Positions 2,251-8,996 of a DNA stretch of 8,996 nt are shown piece by piece. The translations under genes and the position numbers were made by a program. Location: contig CAMYJP010000158.1 in the NCBI GenBank assembly GCA_947258675.1, positions 1-8,996 of the forward strand, in the 5' to 3' direction. The notes under the pieces were generated by a model. That model worked only from the letters and a program-made list of their open reading frames with translations, had not been told where the DNA came from and did not search any database. The first letter of the stretch is position 1, and each line of letters opens with the position of its first letter. The stretch is from an uncultured Desulfobulbaceae bacterium. Lineage in GTDB: Bacteria; Desulfobacterota; Desulfobulbia; Desulfobulbales; BM004.

Positions 2251-2388
2251 GTCGTCTAGCCACATGGTCGATCCCAAATCAAGAACTATGATCAAATCCC
2301 TGCAAATTCATTCTTTTTTCACCCACGAACATGATCATTGGAACCGTTATTCCGTTATTTATTATTGCGGATAAAGGAGTTTTGTCCC

Positions 2389-3732
2389 GTGCTTAGTGAT
2401 ATAAAATCAAAATTACTCGAAGCTGGAAAAGAAGAAGGTTGTATTACGTTCTCCCTTCTAAACAACCTGTTACCTGAAGATATTAAAGAACCGAACGCAA
2501 TTGAGGAGCTTTTTGATTTTTTGGGGGATAATAATATAGAAATTGTCTCAGAGGAAAAATCGGGACAGAAAAAGACCCTTTCCGGAGAGAGTTGGGAAGA
2601 TTATAAACTCAGTATTGCGAATGATGAAATCAGCCAGAAAGAGAATGTTGAAGGTGTTATTTCCGGACCGGATGAACCTCATGATCCTGAAGAAACTACT
2701 ACCACATACCTACGGGAAATGGGTCGGTTTGAGTTGTTAACACCTGCCGAGGAAGGGATCTACAGCAGAACCATTCGTGAAGGTTTTGATGCGATTATTC
2801 GAGCAATCAGAGAAGAGAATGTTGATATTAGTGAGTTGACAACGTTACGGGACAGGATTGATCTGTGGGAAAAACGGGATCCATCCTTGAAACCCAAAAA
2901 ACAACAACTTAATTATATGAAACAGGGTGTTACTAAAGCTGTTTTGAAATACCCGAAAATCAGAGCTCTTTTTGAGCTTCAGACTAAAATTGAAGCGTAT
3001 GCCAGGTCAATAGATACTGCAAAAGATGAAATGATTCGTGCCAATCTGCGTCTTGTTGTTAGTATTGCAAAACGCTACATGCAACAGGGATTGACACTTG
3101 CGGATCTGATTCAAGAGGGTAATCTAGGGCTCATGCGCGCTGTTTTCCGGTTTGATTACACTAAGGGAAATAAATTCAGCACCTATGCAAGTTGGTGGAT
3201 CAGACAGGCCATTACCAGAGCCATACTTGATAAAACACGCACGATTCGTTTGCCAGTGCATTTTTTAGAGTTAAGAAGCCAGTTTTTTAAGGCTTTTTAC
3301 TCTCTTCTCAAAGAACTTGGCAGAGAACCGACGCCGGTCGAGATTTCGAAACGAACCGATTTGCCAATGGATAAGATACTGGCAATTTTAGAAGCCTCCA
3401 GAGAACCAATTTCGCTTGAAACTCCTATAGGTGATGATGATAGTACATTAGGGGACTTTCTTGAAAATCAGGAATCAGTGTCTCCTTATGAAGCTGTTCA
3501 AAACAGAGAATTATCAAGCCGGGTGAAAACGATCCTTGGAACATTGAGCCAGAGAGAAGAGAAAATTATCAGGCTTCGTTTCGGCATTGGAGAAAAAGCG
3601 GAATATACCCTAGAGGAAATCGGTAAGCGTTTTAATGTGTCGCGGGAAAGGATCAGACAAATTGAAAAGAAGGCGCTAAACCGGTTGCGACACTCCAGCA
3701 GGCGAGATAAATTGAAGTATTTTCTTGATTGA
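2389..3732 (+). CDS. rpoD: RNA polymerase sigma-70 factor, RpoD family (short form)
   Basis: This sigma factor directs RNA polymerase to promoters. The frame is open from a TTG at 2338, but I choose GTG 2389 because AAGGAG (2374-2379) lies nine bases before it and the protein then starts directly in a short region 1.1 (MLSDIKSKLLEAGKEEG). This gives 447 residues. Region 1.2 is near residues 103-135 (TTTYLREMGRFELLTPAEEG). Region 2 is near 214-292 (ANLRLVVSIAKRYM, DLIQEGNLGLMRAV, FSTYASWWIRQAITRA), region 3 near 293-365, and region 4 near 376-443 with the helix-turn-helix YTLEEIGKRFNVSRERIRQIE. Residues matching the E. coli RpoD -10 readers (Q437, T440) are kept as Q273 and T276. Those for the extended -10 (H455, E458) are kept as H291 and E294. 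The non-conserved region between 1.2 and 2.1 is only about 65-75 residues, against roughly 245 in E. coli. It could be the primary sigma factor or a group 2 paralogue; the sequence alone does not decide. Confidence 0.93.
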   Translation: MLSDIKSKLLEAGKEEGCITFSLLNNLLPEDIKEPNAIEELFDFLGDNNIEIVSEEKSGQKKTLSGESWEDYKLSIANDEISQKENVEGVISGPDEPHDPEETTTTYLREMGRFELLTPAEEGIYSRTIREGFDAIIRAIREENVDISELTTLRDRIDLWEKRDPSLKPKKQQLNYMKQGVTKAVLKYPKIRALFELQTKIEAYARSIDTAKDEMIRANLRLVVSIAKRYMQQGLTLADLIQEGNLGLMRAVFRFDYTKGNKFSTYASWWIRQAITRAILDKTRTIRLPVHFLELRSQFFKAFYSLLKELGREPTPVEISKRTDLPMDKILAILEASREPISLETPIGDDDSTLGDFLENQESVSPYEAVQNRELSSRVKTILGTLSQREEKIIRLRFGIGEKAEYTLEEIGKRFNVSRERIRQIEKKALNRLRHSSRRDKLKYFLD

Positions 3733-3782
3733 TTTGTTTTGAAAGGTATTTGATTAAGCAAACCAGTCGTTTTTTATTACAT

Positions 3783-3825
3783 ATGTTGAGAGGGGAGCCA
3801 TGGAACCCTCTCAACATTTTTTTTT
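3783..3825 (+). terminator. Strong rho-independent terminator after the sigma factor gene
   Basis: ATGTTGAGAGGG (3783-3794) and CCCTCTCAACAT (3806-3817) form a perfect 12-bp stem around an 11-base loop that contains CCATGG. A run of nine T (3817-3825) follows at once. The hairpin starts about 50 bases after the sigma gene stop and points in the plus direction. There is no matching A tract on the left side, so it should not work on the minus strand. It insulates the sigma gene from the menaquinone cluster. Confidence 0.93.
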
Positions 3826-3994
3826 GCGTTAGGGTTACAGAACATTAATTCTTTGCCCTATCAAGCACACCCTCAATTTTTATCGAACCTTTTCTTCGTT
3901 GCTCAAATGGTGTAAGAATGCATTTCTCAAGAAAGGGTTATAGGTTCATGTCTTACCTAAGGGAAAAAATCTTAATAGGAATTGTTGATACCAG
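3826..3994 (+). other. Intergenic leader before mqnE
   Basis: These 169 bases follow the terminator, so the promoter of the menaquinone cluster should lie here. I found no -35/-10 pair that stands out, and no riboswitch-like fold. The bases just before the mqnE ATG hold no well-spaced Shine-Dalgarno (the nearest, AGGAA, is about 13 bases away). Confidence 0.4.
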
Positions 3995-5089
3995 ATGGAT
4001 GCATTAGTAAAAAAAGCCGGTCTTGGCGACATTTTAGAAAAGGTGAAGGATTCGGAACGATTAACACGTGAAGATGGTGTTCGTCTATTTCAATGCCCAA
4101 ATATTCTGGCAGTTGGTTTTTTAGCCAATATTGTAAGAGAAAGGCTTAATGGTGATAAGGCCTATTTCATTTATAACCAGCATATTAATTATTCTAATAT
4201 CTGTACAAACCTTTGCAAATTTTGTGCATATGGCAAGGATAAATCTTCAGAGCTTGCCTTTGAGTTTAGTGTTGATGAAGTGATGGAAAAGGTTCGTGAA
4301 AGACTTTCAGAACCGATTACCGAAGTGCATATGGTGGGTGGAATCCATCCTGATTTGCCCTATACTTATTACCTTGACCTTCTGCAAGGGATTAAGTCTG
4401 TTCGGCCTGAAGTACATATTCAGGCATTTACTTGTGTGGAAATTGCACATCTGGCTGACCTTGCCGGACTATCAATTGGTGATACTCTTCAGGAATTGAA
4501 AGATGCAGGTCTTGGATCCATACCAGGCGGTGGGGCTGAGGTTTTCAGTCCTAGAATACGGGAATTAACATGTGAGAAGAAATTATCTGGCGAAGGATGG
4601 ATCCAGGTTGCGAAGACAGCTCATCGACAGGGACTGCATAGCAACGCTACTATGCTCTATGGTCATATTGAAACTCTTGAAGAGCGAGTTGAACATTTAG
4701 AAATGCTTCGCACGGCGCAGGATGAGACTGGAGGGTTTCTTGCCTACATCCCACTGGCCTTTCACCCAAAAAATACTGAGTTGTCGCAAATTTCTAAGAC
4801 AACAGGACTTGAAGATTTAAAAAATGTAGCCGTAGCTCGCTGCTTCCTTGACAATTTCCCTCATATTAAAGCGTATTGGGTGATGATTGGACCGAAGCTA
4901 GCTCAAATAGCCCTATCATTTGGTGCTGACGATATGGATGGAACAGTTAAAGAAGAAGTTATTACTCATATGGCAGGAGCTGAAACTGAACAGCACATAG
5001 GGAGTGATACGTTGGTCAATCTCATTCGAGAGGCAGGACGGATTCCTGTTGAGAGGGATACCCTATATAATGTTATAAGGCAAAATTGA
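3995..5089 (+). CDS. mqnE: Aminofutalosine synthase (radical SAM)
   Basis: MqnE joins 3-[(1-carboxyvinyl)oxy]benzoate to S-adenosylmethionine by radical chemistry to give aminofutalosine, an early step of the futalosine menaquinone pathway. The 364-residue protein is full length. The radical SAM cluster motif is intact: C70-x3-C74-x2-C77 in the family context NQHINYSNICTNLCKFCAYG (61-80). Further MqnE blocks are MVGGIHPDLPYTYYLDLL (113-130), the SIPGGGAEVF segment (175-184) and AYIPLAFHPKNTEL (250-263). IPLAFHP separates MqnE from its paralogue MqnC, which has IPWPFQP. An in-frame TGA nine bases upstream makes the ATG at 3995 the first possible start in this stretch, though its ribosome site is weak. 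The stop codon overlaps a small ORF as TGATG. It heads the menaquinone cluster. Confidence 0.95.
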   Translation: MDALVKKAGLGDILEKVKDSERLTREDGVRLFQCPNILAVGFLANIVRERLNGDKAYFIYNQHINYSNICTNLCKFCAYGKDKSSELAFEFSVDEVMEKVRERLSEPITEVHMVGGIHPDLPYTYYLDLLQGIKSVRPEVHIQAFTCVEIAHLADLAGLSIGDTLQELKDAGLGSIPGGGAEVFSPRIRELTCEKKLSGEGWIQVAKTAHRQGLHSNATMLYGHIETLEERVEHLEMLRTAQDETGGFLAYIPLAFHPKNTELSQISKTTGLEDLKNVAVARCFLDNFPHIKAYWVMIGPKLAQIALSFGADDMDGTVKEEVITHMAGAETEQHIGSDTLVNLIREAGRIPVERDTLYNVIRQN

Positions 5090-5202
5090 TGGATCCGAAA
5101 AAAGATATTTTCTTTTTAATTGAGAAATTTCGAGGTCCACTCTTTTACCGGCTAAATTCCAAAACTCTCCGTCTGAGGCGGATCAAACAATGGAAATTTT
5201 AA
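5089..5202 (+). CDS. Candidate small ORF overlapping the mqnE stop (37 aa, unknown)
   Basis: An ATG at 5089 overlaps the mqnE stop in the arrangement TGATG, a usual sign of translational coupling. It opens a 37-codon frame ending with TAA at 5200-5202. The product begins MDPKKDIFFLIEKFRG and ends RLRRIKQWKF. It is strongly basic at the C-terminus, with no signal peptide, cysteine or membrane segment. I recognise no family. It has no Shine-Dalgarno of its own apart from what lies inside the mqnE end. It could be a real small protein, a decayed remnant, or chance. Confidence 0.25.
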   Translation: MDPKKDIFFLIEKFRGPLFYRLNSKTLRLRRIKQWKF

Positions 5203-5325
5203 CGCTGTATTCGTTGTGGCCTTTTTTTCAAATTTTCTCTATTTCGATTGCAAAACGACTTTTTGCGAGTCAGTTACAATTAACAATACGTAGGAGCATT
5301 TTTATAAGAATGTGACAAAATAATC
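5203..5325 (+). other. Non-coding leader before mqnC
   Basis: These 123 bases hold no gene that I can support. Two small overlapping hairpins are possible: GCAAAA (5250-5255) with TTTTGC (5261-5266), or GACT (5257-5260) with AGTC (5268-5271). Neither is followed by a T run. An AGGAG at 5292-5296 is too far from the mqnC ATG (29 bases) to serve it well, and a TAA at 5305-5307 in the mqnC frame blocks any longer start. Confidence 0.4.
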
Positions 5326-6279
5326 ATGGAGCAAATTTATAAAAAAATTCTTGAAGGTGGGCGGCTTACAGGCGATGATACTTTGGCTTTGGCAAAGAAG
5401 AGTGATTTTTATACCCTGGCTTTTCTGGCTGATGAAACCAGGAAAAGACTTCGTGAGGTCCTTTCTTTCGATGAATTAGCTAAAAAAATTAAGGAGACAC
5501 AGGATTTGGGGGGGACTCAGATTTTATTGCAGGGTGGGTTGCATCCTGATAAACCGCTTGAATTTTATGAAGAGATGTTGCAGTTCATCAAATCAACAGG
5601 AATTCATATCCACGGTTTTTCACCTCCTGAAGTTTATCATTTTTCGCAATTATCCGGCTTATCTTTAAATGATGTCTTGAAACGTTTGCAAAGAGCAGGG
5701 CTGGATTCCATACCAGGTGGTGGTGCTGAGATTCTTTCGGACAGGGTCCGAGAGATAGCCTCACCGCGAAAATGTTCTGCAGATCAATGGATTGATGTTA
5801 TGGAAAGAGCGCATAATCTTGGTATGCGCACATCTGCAACCATGATGTTCGGTCATATTGAAACCATGGAAGAACGGATTGAGCATCTCGGTCGAATAAG
5901 AGATCTTCAGGACAGGACCGGCGGCTTTACAGCATTTATTCCATGGCCCTTTCAACCAGCTAACAGTGCCTTTGAACATTTGCCAAAAGCTTCGGGGTTT
6001 TCCTATCTCAAAATGCTCGCTTTATCTAGAATATTTCTTGATAATGTTGATAATATTCAAGCCTCCTGGGTGACACAGGGGCCCAAAATCGCCCAACTTT
6101 CTCTCTTTTTCGGCGCTAATGATTTTGGAAGTACGATGATTGAAGAGAATGTCGTGGCCGCTGCTGGTGTAAGTTTCAGACTCACTGAAAAGGAAATACG
6201 GTTGCTGATTACTGATGCCGGTTTTGAACCCAAACAACGGTTGATGGACTATTCTCTTGCAGGTGGAAATGGAGAGTAA
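5326..6279 (+). CDS. mqnC: MqnC-like dehypoxanthine futalosine cyclase lacking the radical SAM cluster segment
   Basis: The closest family is MqnC, the radical SAM enzyme that cyclises dehypoxanthine futalosine in menaquinone synthesis. Matching blocks are TQILLQGGLHPDKPLEFY (64-81), IHIHGFSPPEV (93-103), LDSIPGGGAEILSDRVR (126-142), ATMMFGHIETMEERIEHL (171-188) and LQDRTGGFTAFIPWPFQP (194-211). The product is 317 residues against about 360 usual. After ADETRKRL (35-42) only four residues, REVL, precede SFDEL. In MqnE the corresponding stretch is 40 residues and holds the CX3CX2C cluster. The only cysteine in the whole product is C150. A second, two-residue gap relative to MqnE precedes IHIHGF. 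The frame is intact with no stop, so the loss is in frame. As written the protein should not bind a radical SAM [4Fe-4S] cluster and should not cyclise its substrate. The ATG has no good Shine-Dalgarno. The family call is firm; activity is doubtful. Confidence 0.88.
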   Translation: MEQIYKKILEGGRLTGDDTLALAKKSDFYTLAFLADETRKRLREVLSFDELAKKIKETQDLGGTQILLQGGLHPDKPLEFYEEMLQFIKSTGIHIHGFSPPEVYHFSQLSGLSLNDVLKRLQRAGLDSIPGGGAEILSDRVREIASPRKCSADQWIDVMERAHNLGMRTSATMMFGHIETMEERIEHLGRIRDLQDRTGGFTAFIPWPFQPANSAFEHLPKASGFSYLKMLALSRIFLDNVDNIQASWVTQGPKIAQLSLFFGANDFGSTMIEENVVAAAGVSFRLTEKEIRLLITDAGFEPKQRLMDYSLAGGNGE

Positions 6280-6282
6280 AGG

Positions 6283-7620
6283 TTGGAAAATCTGAAATTA
6301 TCAGATTATAACGGAAATATTCAATCAGTGTCTGACGTATTTCTTCATCGAGCACCCTGGGTCATAACAGTTTCTCAGAATCATTCCCGGTTTTCTCAAT
6401 TGGCGGATGCAGATTTCGATGAAAGTTACATCGAAGACGGTTGTGTCTGTTCCTGCAACGGGCGAATTTTGGACGTTGGTCGTTATAAGGATTTGAGAAA
6501 TGAATATTCAGGTGGTATGCTGGTTGACCATGAGTGCTGCATACTTACACCATCTCTGGTAAATGGTCACACTCATCTGGAACTCTCCCACCTTTTAAAA
6601 CTCGGAAAATCTCCTGGAATTAAGACAAGTCTGCCGACCTGGATACGAACGCTGATTACCAAGAGACAGGAGAGTGCATTACCAGAATCAGATATAATTA
6701 AAGCAGGGCGTCTGGCATTGGATCAAATGCATTCCGGAGGCATTGGTTTAGTCGGGGACATTGGCAATAGAGAATCCAGTAGAAAAATAGCCTATGGTTC
6801 AAAAACCGACGTGGTTTTTTTCCTTGAATTATTCGGCATGAGCAAAGATGCTGAAAAGAGGGTTCTGAAAAGGCTTGATCATGAAATTTCTGAAGATTTT
6901 GTCTGTACTGCTCATGCTCCGTATTCCACCAGCGCTGAATTAATCAGGTTATTGAAAAGCAAGGCTAATGAACAGCAAGCTGTTTTTTCCATTCATGTTG
7001 CTGAATCAGTTGATGAACTTGAATTCCTGCGTTATGGAAGTGGAGAATTTTCTGAATTACTCGTTGAAAAAGGTGTGATCGATCGTTCTTTTTCTCCGGT
7101 AATACAAAAGGGCATGGGATCGGTTCATTATCTTGATTCGCTTGGGGTCTTGGATGAAAAAACCATGTGTGTCCATGCCGTACATCTTGAACCATCAGAA
7201 ATTGAAATGCTGTCGAATCGGAACTGTAAAGTATGTTTATGTCCCGGTAGCAACCGATATCTTGGCGTAGGCAAGGCACCTGTAGCTTTTTTTCTAGCAA
7301 ATGGTATTCTGCCGGCTCTTGGTACCGACAGCCTGGCCAGTAATCCTGAAGTGAGCATTTGGCAGGAAATGCAGCATATCAGGCATGAGCATTTTGAAAT
7401 TAACCCGGCAGTTGTTTTTGCAATGGGCACAGTTGGCGGAGCTGAGGCCCTTGGACTTGGCAAAGAGTTGGGATCCTTGGAACCTGGTAAACGGGCTTCT
7501 TTTCTTGCAGTTCACTATGAAGAAAATTCTGCAAAGAATATTTTTGAGTTCCTGACAACCATTGGAAACGGGGTCCGCCTCTCTTGGATTAGTGAAAGCT
7601 ATAATGAAGAAAAATCCTAA
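6283..7620 (+). CDS. mqnX: Aminofutalosine deaminase-like amidohydrolase
   Basis: This amidohydrolase-superfamily protein (445 residues) most likely deaminates aminofutalosine to futalosine, the role of MqnX in organisms that do not hydrolyse aminofutalosine directly. The metal-binding set is complete: H96 and H98 in NGHTHLELSHL, H238 in SIHVAES, and D349 in LGTDSLASNPE. HAPYSTS (211-217) and HAVHL (298-302) are further family blocks. SLEPGKRASFLAV near 398-410 is the usual C-terminal beta-sandwich signature. The start is a TTG at 6283, chosen because GGAG (6271-6274) lies eight bases upstream and the next in-frame ATG would remove the N-terminal domain. It follows mqnC by three bases, and its TAA stop overlaps the mqnA ribosome site. 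Substrate choice within the chlorohydrolase/adenosine deaminase-like group rests on the neighbours MqnE, MqnC and MqnA; the fold alone would allow other nucleoside or triazine deaminases. Confidence 0.85.
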   Translation: MENLKLSDYNGNIQSVSDVFLHRAPWVITVSQNHSRFSQLADADFDESYIEDGCVCSCNGRILDVGRYKDLRNEYSGGMLVDHECCILTPSLVNGHTHLELSHLLKLGKSPGIKTSLPTWIRTLITKRQESALPESDIIKAGRLALDQMHSGGIGLVGDIGNRESSRKIAYGSKTDVVFFLELFGMSKDAEKRVLKRLDHEISEDFVCTAHAPYSTSAELIRLLKSKANEQQAVFSIHVAESVDELEFLRYGSGEFSELLVEKGVIDRSFSPVIQKGMGSVHYLDSLGVLDEKTMCVHAVHLEPSEIEMLSNRNCKVCLCPGSNRYLGVGKAPVAFFLANGILPALGTDSLASNPEVSIWQEMQHIRHEHFEINPAVVFAMGTVGGAEALGLGKELGSLEPGKRASFLAVHYEENSAKNIFEFLTTIGNGVRLSWISESYNEEKS

Positions 7621-7625
7621 GGAAG
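7619..7625 (+). promoter_or_regulatory. Ribosome binding site that sets the mqnA start
   Basis: AAGGAAG begins within the TAA stop of the preceding gene and lies seven bases (counted from AAGGA) before GTG 7631. This favours the GTG over the in-frame ATG at 7604, which would place the start inside the upstream gene. The overlap suggests translational coupling. Confidence 0.7.
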
Positions 7626-7630
7626 AGCAA

Positions 7631-8464
7631 GTGCAGGTGCGTATCGGTATGGTTAATTTCATCAATACCGCACCGATTTATGAAATATGGAAAAAAACCG
7701 TAAATAGGCCTGAATGGTTAATTAAGGCAGCGCCTCCAAACGTTCTAAATCAGATGCTGTATGAGGAAGAGCTTGAATTAGGTTGCGTATCTTCTTTTGA
7801 ATATGCTGCTCACCCATGGAAATACAGGATATTAAGTGATCTTTCCATTAGTGCATCTGGTCCGGTGGGGAGTGTCTTTCTTTTTTCCAGAGTTATTCCT
7901 GAAAAACTTTCTGACCAGCTTGTTCTGTTGAGTGGGCAGTCACAGACATCCGCCAGTCTGGTAAAGATTATTCTTGAAGAGTTTTACCAGGTTTTTCCGC
8001 ATTATATGACCGGCAATGTTCTTGAATCTCAGAAGAACGGCAAAAAAGCTGCGGCTGTCTTGGCAATAGGGGATGAAGCTCTCAAATTATTACATGATAA
8101 TGAGTACCCGGTGAAGCTTGATCTTGGAGAGGTATGGCAGAAACATACCGAGTTACCATTTGTTTTTGCAGTATGGGGTGTTCGTGAAGAGTTTTGTCAA
8201 AGACAGGCTGGTAGTGTTCAAGCAATTCATCAGGAACTTTTGCGATGTCTCAATGAAGGAAGGGCAAATCTAGATGACATCTGTAAAGATGTGGCGCCAA
8301 GGATACCGATGGAGCACGAAGCTTGTCTCAGGTACCTACAATCCATGGAATATGATTTAGGGCCGGAAAAATTAAAGGCACTTACTTGTTTTTTTGAGTT
8401 TCTCATTAAAAGGGGAGAGGCCGATTCTGAAGCATTGCCTATAAAAATATTTAACCAGAATTGA
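7631..8464 (+). CDS. mqnA: Chorismate dehydratase, menaquinone biosynthesis
   Basis: MqnA removes water from chorismate to form 3-[(1-carboxyvinyl)oxy]benzoate, the substrate of MqnE, and so commits chorismate to the futalosine route. The fold is that of a two-lobed periplasmic-binding-like protein, but there is no signal peptide, as expected for a cytoplasmic enzyme. With GTG 7631 as start the protein has 277 residues and begins MQVRIGMVNFINTAPIYE, the usual MqnA opening. Further family blocks are LGCVSSFEYA (50-59), ISASGPVGSVFLFS (73-86), SGQSQTSASLVK (101-112), AIGDEAL (145-151) and DLGEVWQKHTELPFVFAVW (164-182); the DLGxxW(x)nLPFVFAxW pattern is a hallmark. The frame is open upstream to a TTG at 7562 and an ATG at 7604, but both lie inside mqnX and lack a ribosome site as good as that of the GTG. 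Confidence 0.94.
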   Translation: MQVRIGMVNFINTAPIYEIWKKTVNRPEWLIKAAPPNVLNQMLYEEELELGCVSSFEYAAHPWKYRILSDLSISASGPVGSVFLFSRVIPEKLSDQLVLLSGQSQTSASLVKIILEEFYQVFPHYMTGNVLESQKNGKKAAAVLAIGDEALKLLHDNEYPVKLDLGEVWQKHTELPFVFAVWGVREEFCQRQAGSVQAIHQELLRCLNEGRANLDDICKDVAPRIPMEHEACLRYLQSMEYDLGPEKLKALTCFFEFLIKRGEADSEALPIKIFNQN

Positions 8465-8480
8465 ACAAACAGACATCAAA

Positions 8481-8996
8481 ATGGAATCCGTTGAAGAAAA
8501 AAAGGCGTTTGTCAGGGAAAAATTTTCCTCTATAAGCCCAAAGTATGATTTTTTAAACTCTCTCCTCAGTCTGCAGATCGATCGTTACTGGCGATGGGTT
8601 ACCACCAGAGAACTTAAGAGTTTTCAGGATGGAGCGGTATTGGACCTTTGTGCAGGAACTTTACCATTATCTCTTGAATTGACCAGACAAGTAGCTCTGC
8701 GCAAGGTCGTGGCTATTGATTTTTGTCAGGAGATGCTTGATTATGGTAAGAAAAATCTGCCGATCGCCGATGACAGACAATATAGGATTTTTCCAGTTTG
8801 CGGCGATGGTGAAGAAATACCAGCCAGGAATGAAAGCTTCAACGGTATCACCGTGGCGTTTGGGGTACGAAACCTGGCCAGGACTCAAATTGGCCTGCAA
8901 GAAATGTGGCGTGTTTTGAAGCCGAGAGGAAAATTATTAATTCTTGAGTTTTCCAGGCCTCGTAATTTTATAATCAAACCATTGTATACTTTTTAT
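8481..8996 (+). CDS. ubiE: Demethylmenaquinone methyltransferase, UbiE/MenG family (cut by window edge)
   Basis: UbiE/MenG uses S-adenosylmethionine to methylate demethylmenaquinone, the last step of menaquinone synthesis. The frame is open for 172 codons from ATG 8481 to the window end; the family is about 230-250 residues, so the C-terminus is missing. Family blocks are FSSISPKYDFLNSLLSLQID (15-34), motif I VLDLCAGTLPLSLEL (53-67), AIDFCQEML (78-86), FNGITVAFGVRNL (120-132) and MWRVLKPRGKLLILEFSRP (142-160). GVRNL and LEFSxP are specific to UbiE. Motif I reads AGTLP where most UbiE proteins have GGTGD. The gene is 16 bases after mqnA and in the same direction, which fits a role in the same pathway. 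No clear Shine-Dalgarno precedes the ATG, so translation may depend on coupling to mqnA. Confidence 0.93.
   Translation, partial: MESVEEKKAFVREKFSSISPKYDFLNSLLSLQIDRYWRWVTTRELKSFQDGAVLDLCAGTLPLSLELTRQVALRKVVAIDFCQEMLDYGKKNLPIADDRQYRIFPVCGDGEEIPARNESFNGITVAFGVRNLARTQIGLQEMWRVLKPRGKLLILEFSRPRNFIIKPLYTFY

Follow-up and report, generated by a model that had tools for sequence, protein, structure and literature searches.

An assembled mqnC homologue without its radical SAM cluster segment in the futalosine locus of an uncultured Desulfobulbaceae bacterium

MqnC is a radical SAM enzyme that cyclises dehypoxanthine futalosine (PMC8210684). The closest solved structures to full-length MqnC relatives, by sequence and by fold, are those of MqnE, the aminofutalosine synthase (PDB 6xi9 and 6xig), a member of the same fold family. 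Here we analyse a stretch of 8,996 nucleotides (the window; GC content 40.9%) in which mqnC, as assembled, lacks the segment that should hold the radical SAM cluster. Cells that lack an alternative menaquinone route should depend on MqnC, and a dead allele as assembled sequence therefore needs explanation; a search of six related genomes gave no menB and no menD over the family cut-off. We give about an even chance to the view that the sequence records a single recent event in which 111 nt were deleted in frame, a real null allele of an mqnC that was working until lately.

The genes of the window are collected in Table 1. Its mqnC occupies the usual syntenic place, between mqnE and the amidohydrolase and mqnA genes, in a futalosine operon whose reading frames are otherwise open. 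Matches to mqnE, mqnC, the amidohydrolase and mqnA occur together in 40 of the 49 loci compared and all six genes in 13 of the 49; at several of the remaining loci the contig ends cut the gene set. The homologues bear names such as Desulfobulbaceae, Desulfocapsa and Desulfobulbus, which point to the class Desulfobulbia, and the nearest protein to the window MqnE among the matches listed is 83% identical. The listed mqnA and amidohydrolase reading frames overlap by 59 nt (window 7562-7620); since the match of mqnA from a related locus (L097, discussed below) begins at residue 27, the true start of the window mqnA probably lies further downstream.

Table 1. Annotated features of the window (coordinates in window positions).
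Feature	Position	Strand	Remarks
FMN-reductase-like start	window left end	minus	named by eye from reading frames
malQ	between the FMN-reductase-like start and the rpoD-like gene	minus	
rpoD-like sigma factor	2338..3732	+	conserved neighbour
mqnE (aminofutalosine synthase)	3995..5089	+	364 aa, intact, CX3CX2C present
mqnC (cyclic dehypoxanthinyl futalosine synthase homologue)	5326..6279	+	317 aa, 37 residues including CX3CX2C missing
deletion junction	5449..5457	+	hybrid codon and invariant flanking codons
amidohydrolase, probable aminofutalosine deaminase (mqnF-like)	6283..7620	+	open; function suggested by place and a sub-cut-off NF006269 match
mqnA	7562..8464	+	open; PF02621; MqnA rather than MqnD suggested by place
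ubiE/menG-type methyltransferase	8478..8996	+	PF01209; window end cuts the gene

The product of the window mqnC is an MqnC by descent: in addition to its syntenic place, it matches MqnC on both sides of a gap, is nearer to MqnC than to MqnE or CofH, and retains the C-terminal CofH_C domain. Alignment shows that 37 residues are missing after residue 43, a loss of 37 codons or 111 nt that contains all of CX3CX2C, so that the protein is without the motif of an active radical SAM MqnC. A preliminary description of this DNA had reported an MqnC homologue with the cluster segment missing in frame, which is confirmed here, the reading frame being kept across the lesion with no internal stop; its estimate was about 110-135 missing bases, and the measured loss is 111 nt. 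It was also right that the paralogue MqnE has 40 residues at this site, with C70, C74 and C77, and that the single cysteine of the window product is C150. Against TIGR03699 the product scores 394.6 bits, below the cut-off of 428.1 bits, with a match that begins at residue 45 (profile position 71) and spans profile positions 71-340. A displacement of the missing segment within the window was considered and rejected: with residues 43-80 of a full-length relative (P0004) as a tblastn query, the sole significant match in the window was mqnE's own segment (4166-4237, E 7e-8), and all other matches were no better than E 0.4.

The lesion was found in no relative examined. CX3CX2C is present in 186 of the 187 MqnC-type proteins compared, a set assembled from a full-length search (best 120 of 8000 scored) and a second search, and the sole exception is the window protein, which is also the only one without the motif among the best 120 of 8000 scored matches. 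At the level of loci the motif is carried by 79 of 80, the exception (L035) being cut at a contig edge. When the junction region (residues 16-75) was used as the query, the window protein scored 116 bits and the next sequence 66 (best 120 of 1074), and no second sequence with the same junction appeared among the matches listed. The class of G001 has matches to the window MqnC in 224 of 257 genomes; among the matches listed for these 257 genomes none runs through the junction, all beginning at query residue 33 or later and so breaking off close to the junction or where a contig ends. When the window's mqnC product was aligned with those of 49 relatives (50 in all, each relative with at least 80% of the query matched), no other product had a gap run of more than 4 residues. 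The literature titles and abstract openings that we searched make no mention of a cluster-less MqnC. The alignment with MqnC proteins of related genomes, which the preliminary description had proposed as a check, points to a one-off event, and its suggestion of a non-catalytic partner is not supported, no second sequence with the junction being among the matches listed. The kept frame and the retention of motifs such as SIPGGGAE would agree with a genuine MqnC that works without a cluster, whether as a regulator or as a partner of MqnE with no catalysis of its own, but there is no second example among the sequences examined; the pattern of divergence, considered below, also bears on it.

The join itself can be read closely. 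The residue that follows the left flank is His in 181 of 181 full-length relatives, and the missing stretch ends in Gly in all 181. In the DNA of the loci compared, 66 motif matches, two of which (L003 and L092) are one genome and all of which were found with an expression that itself requires the His and the Gly, have CAT or CAC as the His codon and GGN as the Gly codon, with a spacing of exactly 37 codons in 65 matches and 36 in one. Residue R43 of the window protein is encoded by CGT (5452-5454). The simplest reading would place the breakpoint between 5452 and 5453, joining the C of the His codon to the GT of the Gly codon, although a later base change could blur this assignment. If the native gene had, like its relatives, CAY for the His and GGN for the Gly, no microhomology is visible at the join. 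A collapsed repeat would leave an overlap belonging to both sides, and the lack of any overlap common to the two sides argues against repeat collapse. The merging of two repeat copies was accordingly set aside, the junction base pattern requiring zero overlap, and with it the preliminary description's collapsed assembly in the strict sense. Within 5300-5600 there is one direct repeat, at 5378-5423, away from the join; this counts for little, as the comparison could not include the missing stretch. The exact junction 19-mer is absent from viral_contigs.

A technical join is another matter. A chimeric read, an amplification chimera or a scaffold misjoin may have dropped 111 nt from the assembly, the organism's own mqnC being intact, and we regard such an artefact as almost as likely as a recent null allele, at somewhat less than an even chance. 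The lesion rests on a single contig, and no second record, with a protein of at least 90% identity to the window MqnC or MqnE, is among the matches listed; both points count against a real deletion. Also in favour of an artefact, the remainder of the window MqnC looks constrained, a dead essential gene is unlikely a priori, and a random join would keep the frame by chance 1 time in 3. Against an artefact, the join has no visible overlap on which to collapse, and no gap of at least 3 residues occurs in the five other window genes compared with relatives. Moreover, as the junction needs no repeat, an overlap-based assembler would probably require reads spanning the join, that is, molecules carrying it.

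For the recent deletion, the consequences for the protein would be severe. When the full-length relative P0004 is modelled, the strand at 47-53 and the loop that bears the cluster cysteines fall within the lost stretch; the window model has two helices joined by a short turn. Both models were built on 40-row alignments and the control is also weak in places, cluster loop included, but the window model is the poorer of the two in mean pLDDT (70.6 vs 74.8) and pTM (0.66 vs 0.79), and when set against the MqnE structures it gives a TM-score by query of 0.62 vs 0.81-0.82 for the full-length control and an rmsd of 20.6-21.0 vs 4.8-6.4. With barrel strand 1 gone the models make a stable fold doubtful, which also tells against a cluster-less protein with another role, and with the [4Fe-4S] loop lost as well the product should be inactive. 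We propose that a Desulfobulbia-type bacterium had a working mqnC until lately, and that one in-frame deletion removed 111 nt, and with them the first barrel strand and the [4Fe-4S] loop in its entirety. A product with no cluster to cleave S-adenosylmethionine would not cyclise dehypoxanthine futalosine, and the allele would be null. The cells would then be without menaquinone by the futalosine route unless they hold a second mqnC, and this may be the start of pathway loss. Both the loss of activity and the existence of the deletion in cells are inferences.

The rest of the window MqnC is conserved much as in working MqnCs, and the loss therefore looks recent. At the 121 columns conserved in at least 99% of the 181 relatives, the window protein has 2 changes, one of them the junction codon, and at least 2 changes are seen in 3 of the 181 relatives; at 147 columns (97%) it again has 2 changes, a level of at least 2 being reached by 22 of 181, and at 181 columns (90%) it has 4, with at least 4 in 42 of 181. 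As the window was left out of the choice of columns, this comparison leans against it. On a fixed topology the MqnC/MqnE terminal branch ratio of the window is 1.17, 28th of 47. Counter to a recent loss, its mean pairwise MqnC/MqnE divergence ratio is 1.08, the second highest of 47 (range 0.91-1.15). The three tests of age do not fully agree, one of them being borderline; these sequences lend no support to a long period without function, whereas a short one would be possible. An old pseudogene is not favoured, given the lack of stops, the few changes at conserved sites and the ordinary terminal branch. The same figures weigh on a cluster-less MqnC with another role: the high mean divergence ratio speaks for it, but the terminal branch is ordinary and the sites that working MqnCs conserve have hardly changed, when a new role should bring drift. 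We consider that role very improbable. Of the three readings in the preliminary description, recent deletion fits best, in that no homologue examined shares the lesion, the rest of the protein is conserved, and the gene stands in its usual single-copy syntenic place.

A real deletion could also be harmless if a second intact mqnC lay elsewhere in the genome. A second mqnC has been reported in Streptomyces caniferus (PMC4763440), and one related genome (G080) has two mqnE-mqnC pairs. However, more than two matches were found in 4 of the 224 matching genomes, and one of those four has a clear second mqnC; the extra matches in the other three are pieces of MqnE. In 29 other related genomes there is, in each case, a single locus at MqnC level and a single one at MqnE level, and the window copy stands in the standard locus and has drifted little, where a redundant copy should have drifted more. 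A second copy is thus a reading to which we attach very little weight. The two pairs of G080, on contigs C391 and C139, include the only clear second mqnC that we saw and may be contamination.

Lesions in other genomes offer a comparison for the recent null allele. Eight genomes with a best mqnC match weaker than 1e-100 (G034, G047, G049, G055, G232, G241, G256 and G258) were searched again with full-length MqnC and the regions read, for G256 on one of two contigs. In four (G047, G055, G232 and G258) mqnC runs off the contig end; in G034 the contig stops at mqnE, at the end where mqnC would be expected next; G241 yielded only part of mqnE, which runs off the end; and the matches of G256 are spread over two contigs. 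Among these eight, an internal loss was found only in G049. At its locus L097 (G049:C164:1-12000, 2539-6323, minus strand) three genes are damaged, mqnE at its N-terminus and mqnC in two parts: mqnE is matched only from residue 54, mqnC (4625-5320, minus) lacks the cluster segment and has a second, in-frame gap of 28 residues where the codon at the join reads as a hybrid, and mqnA has a stop. The malQ, rpoD-like, amidohydrolase and ubiE genes of L097 are all open. G049 also has a second PF02621 gene, which is open and was assigned as mqnD, together with dsrA above cut-off; it has no match to menB and none to menD over cut-off.

L097 can be turned either way. With several losses in one locus it raises the suspicion that such lesions in public assemblies may be errors, which would favour a technical join in the window too. 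But its lesions are confined to mqnE, mqnC and mqnA and spare the flanking genes and the amidohydrolase (itself probably a pathway gene), and so look more like decay than random error. L097 may show a futalosine pathway that is decaying in an organism with dsrA, or it may be a faulty assembly; in the former case it could serve as an independent precedent in the class for a real deletion in the window. Two further loci have a broken mqnE. In L104 (G092:C1:19500-22500, 757-2101, minus) it is in two pieces, residues 1-224 and 218-361, interrupted by about 240 nt, possibly an insertion. In L105 (G150:C220:16000-20000, 1877-2960, minus) two pieces meet near residues 188-212, which would be a frameshift or a sequencing error.

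Our data suggest a recent, isolated breakage of the gene, be it real or technical, rather than a novel type of enzyme. The main value of the finding is a caution against scoring the futalosine pathway complete from a Pfam call: the window MqnC still draws a Radical_SAM call above cut-off, although it has no cluster ligands. Should the deletion be real, there would be relatives of sulfate reducers unable to make menaquinone by the futalosine route. A broader hypothesis, which we think improbable, is that some Desulfobulbia lineages are losing menaquinone synthesis through broken mqnC and neighbouring genes and live on community quinone or on none, the window being a first step and L097 a later one.

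Compared with described and related systems, the window MqnC resembles the MqnC family (TIGR03699) in synteny and in the conserved positions outside the missing segment, and its nearest MqnC protein among the matches listed is 71% identical over 98% of the query. It departs from that family in lacking the 37 residues and the three cluster cysteines and in scoring below the family cut-off. The window MqnE, 41% identical to the window MqnC in alignment, has kept CX3CX2C. The mqnC of G049 shares with that of the window the absent cluster segment and the same locus order. It differs in that its loss is larger and frame-breaking, accompanied by the 28-residue gap and by damage to mqnE and mqnA, and it belongs to another lineage, the MqnE of G049 being 78% identical to the window MqnE over the matched part.
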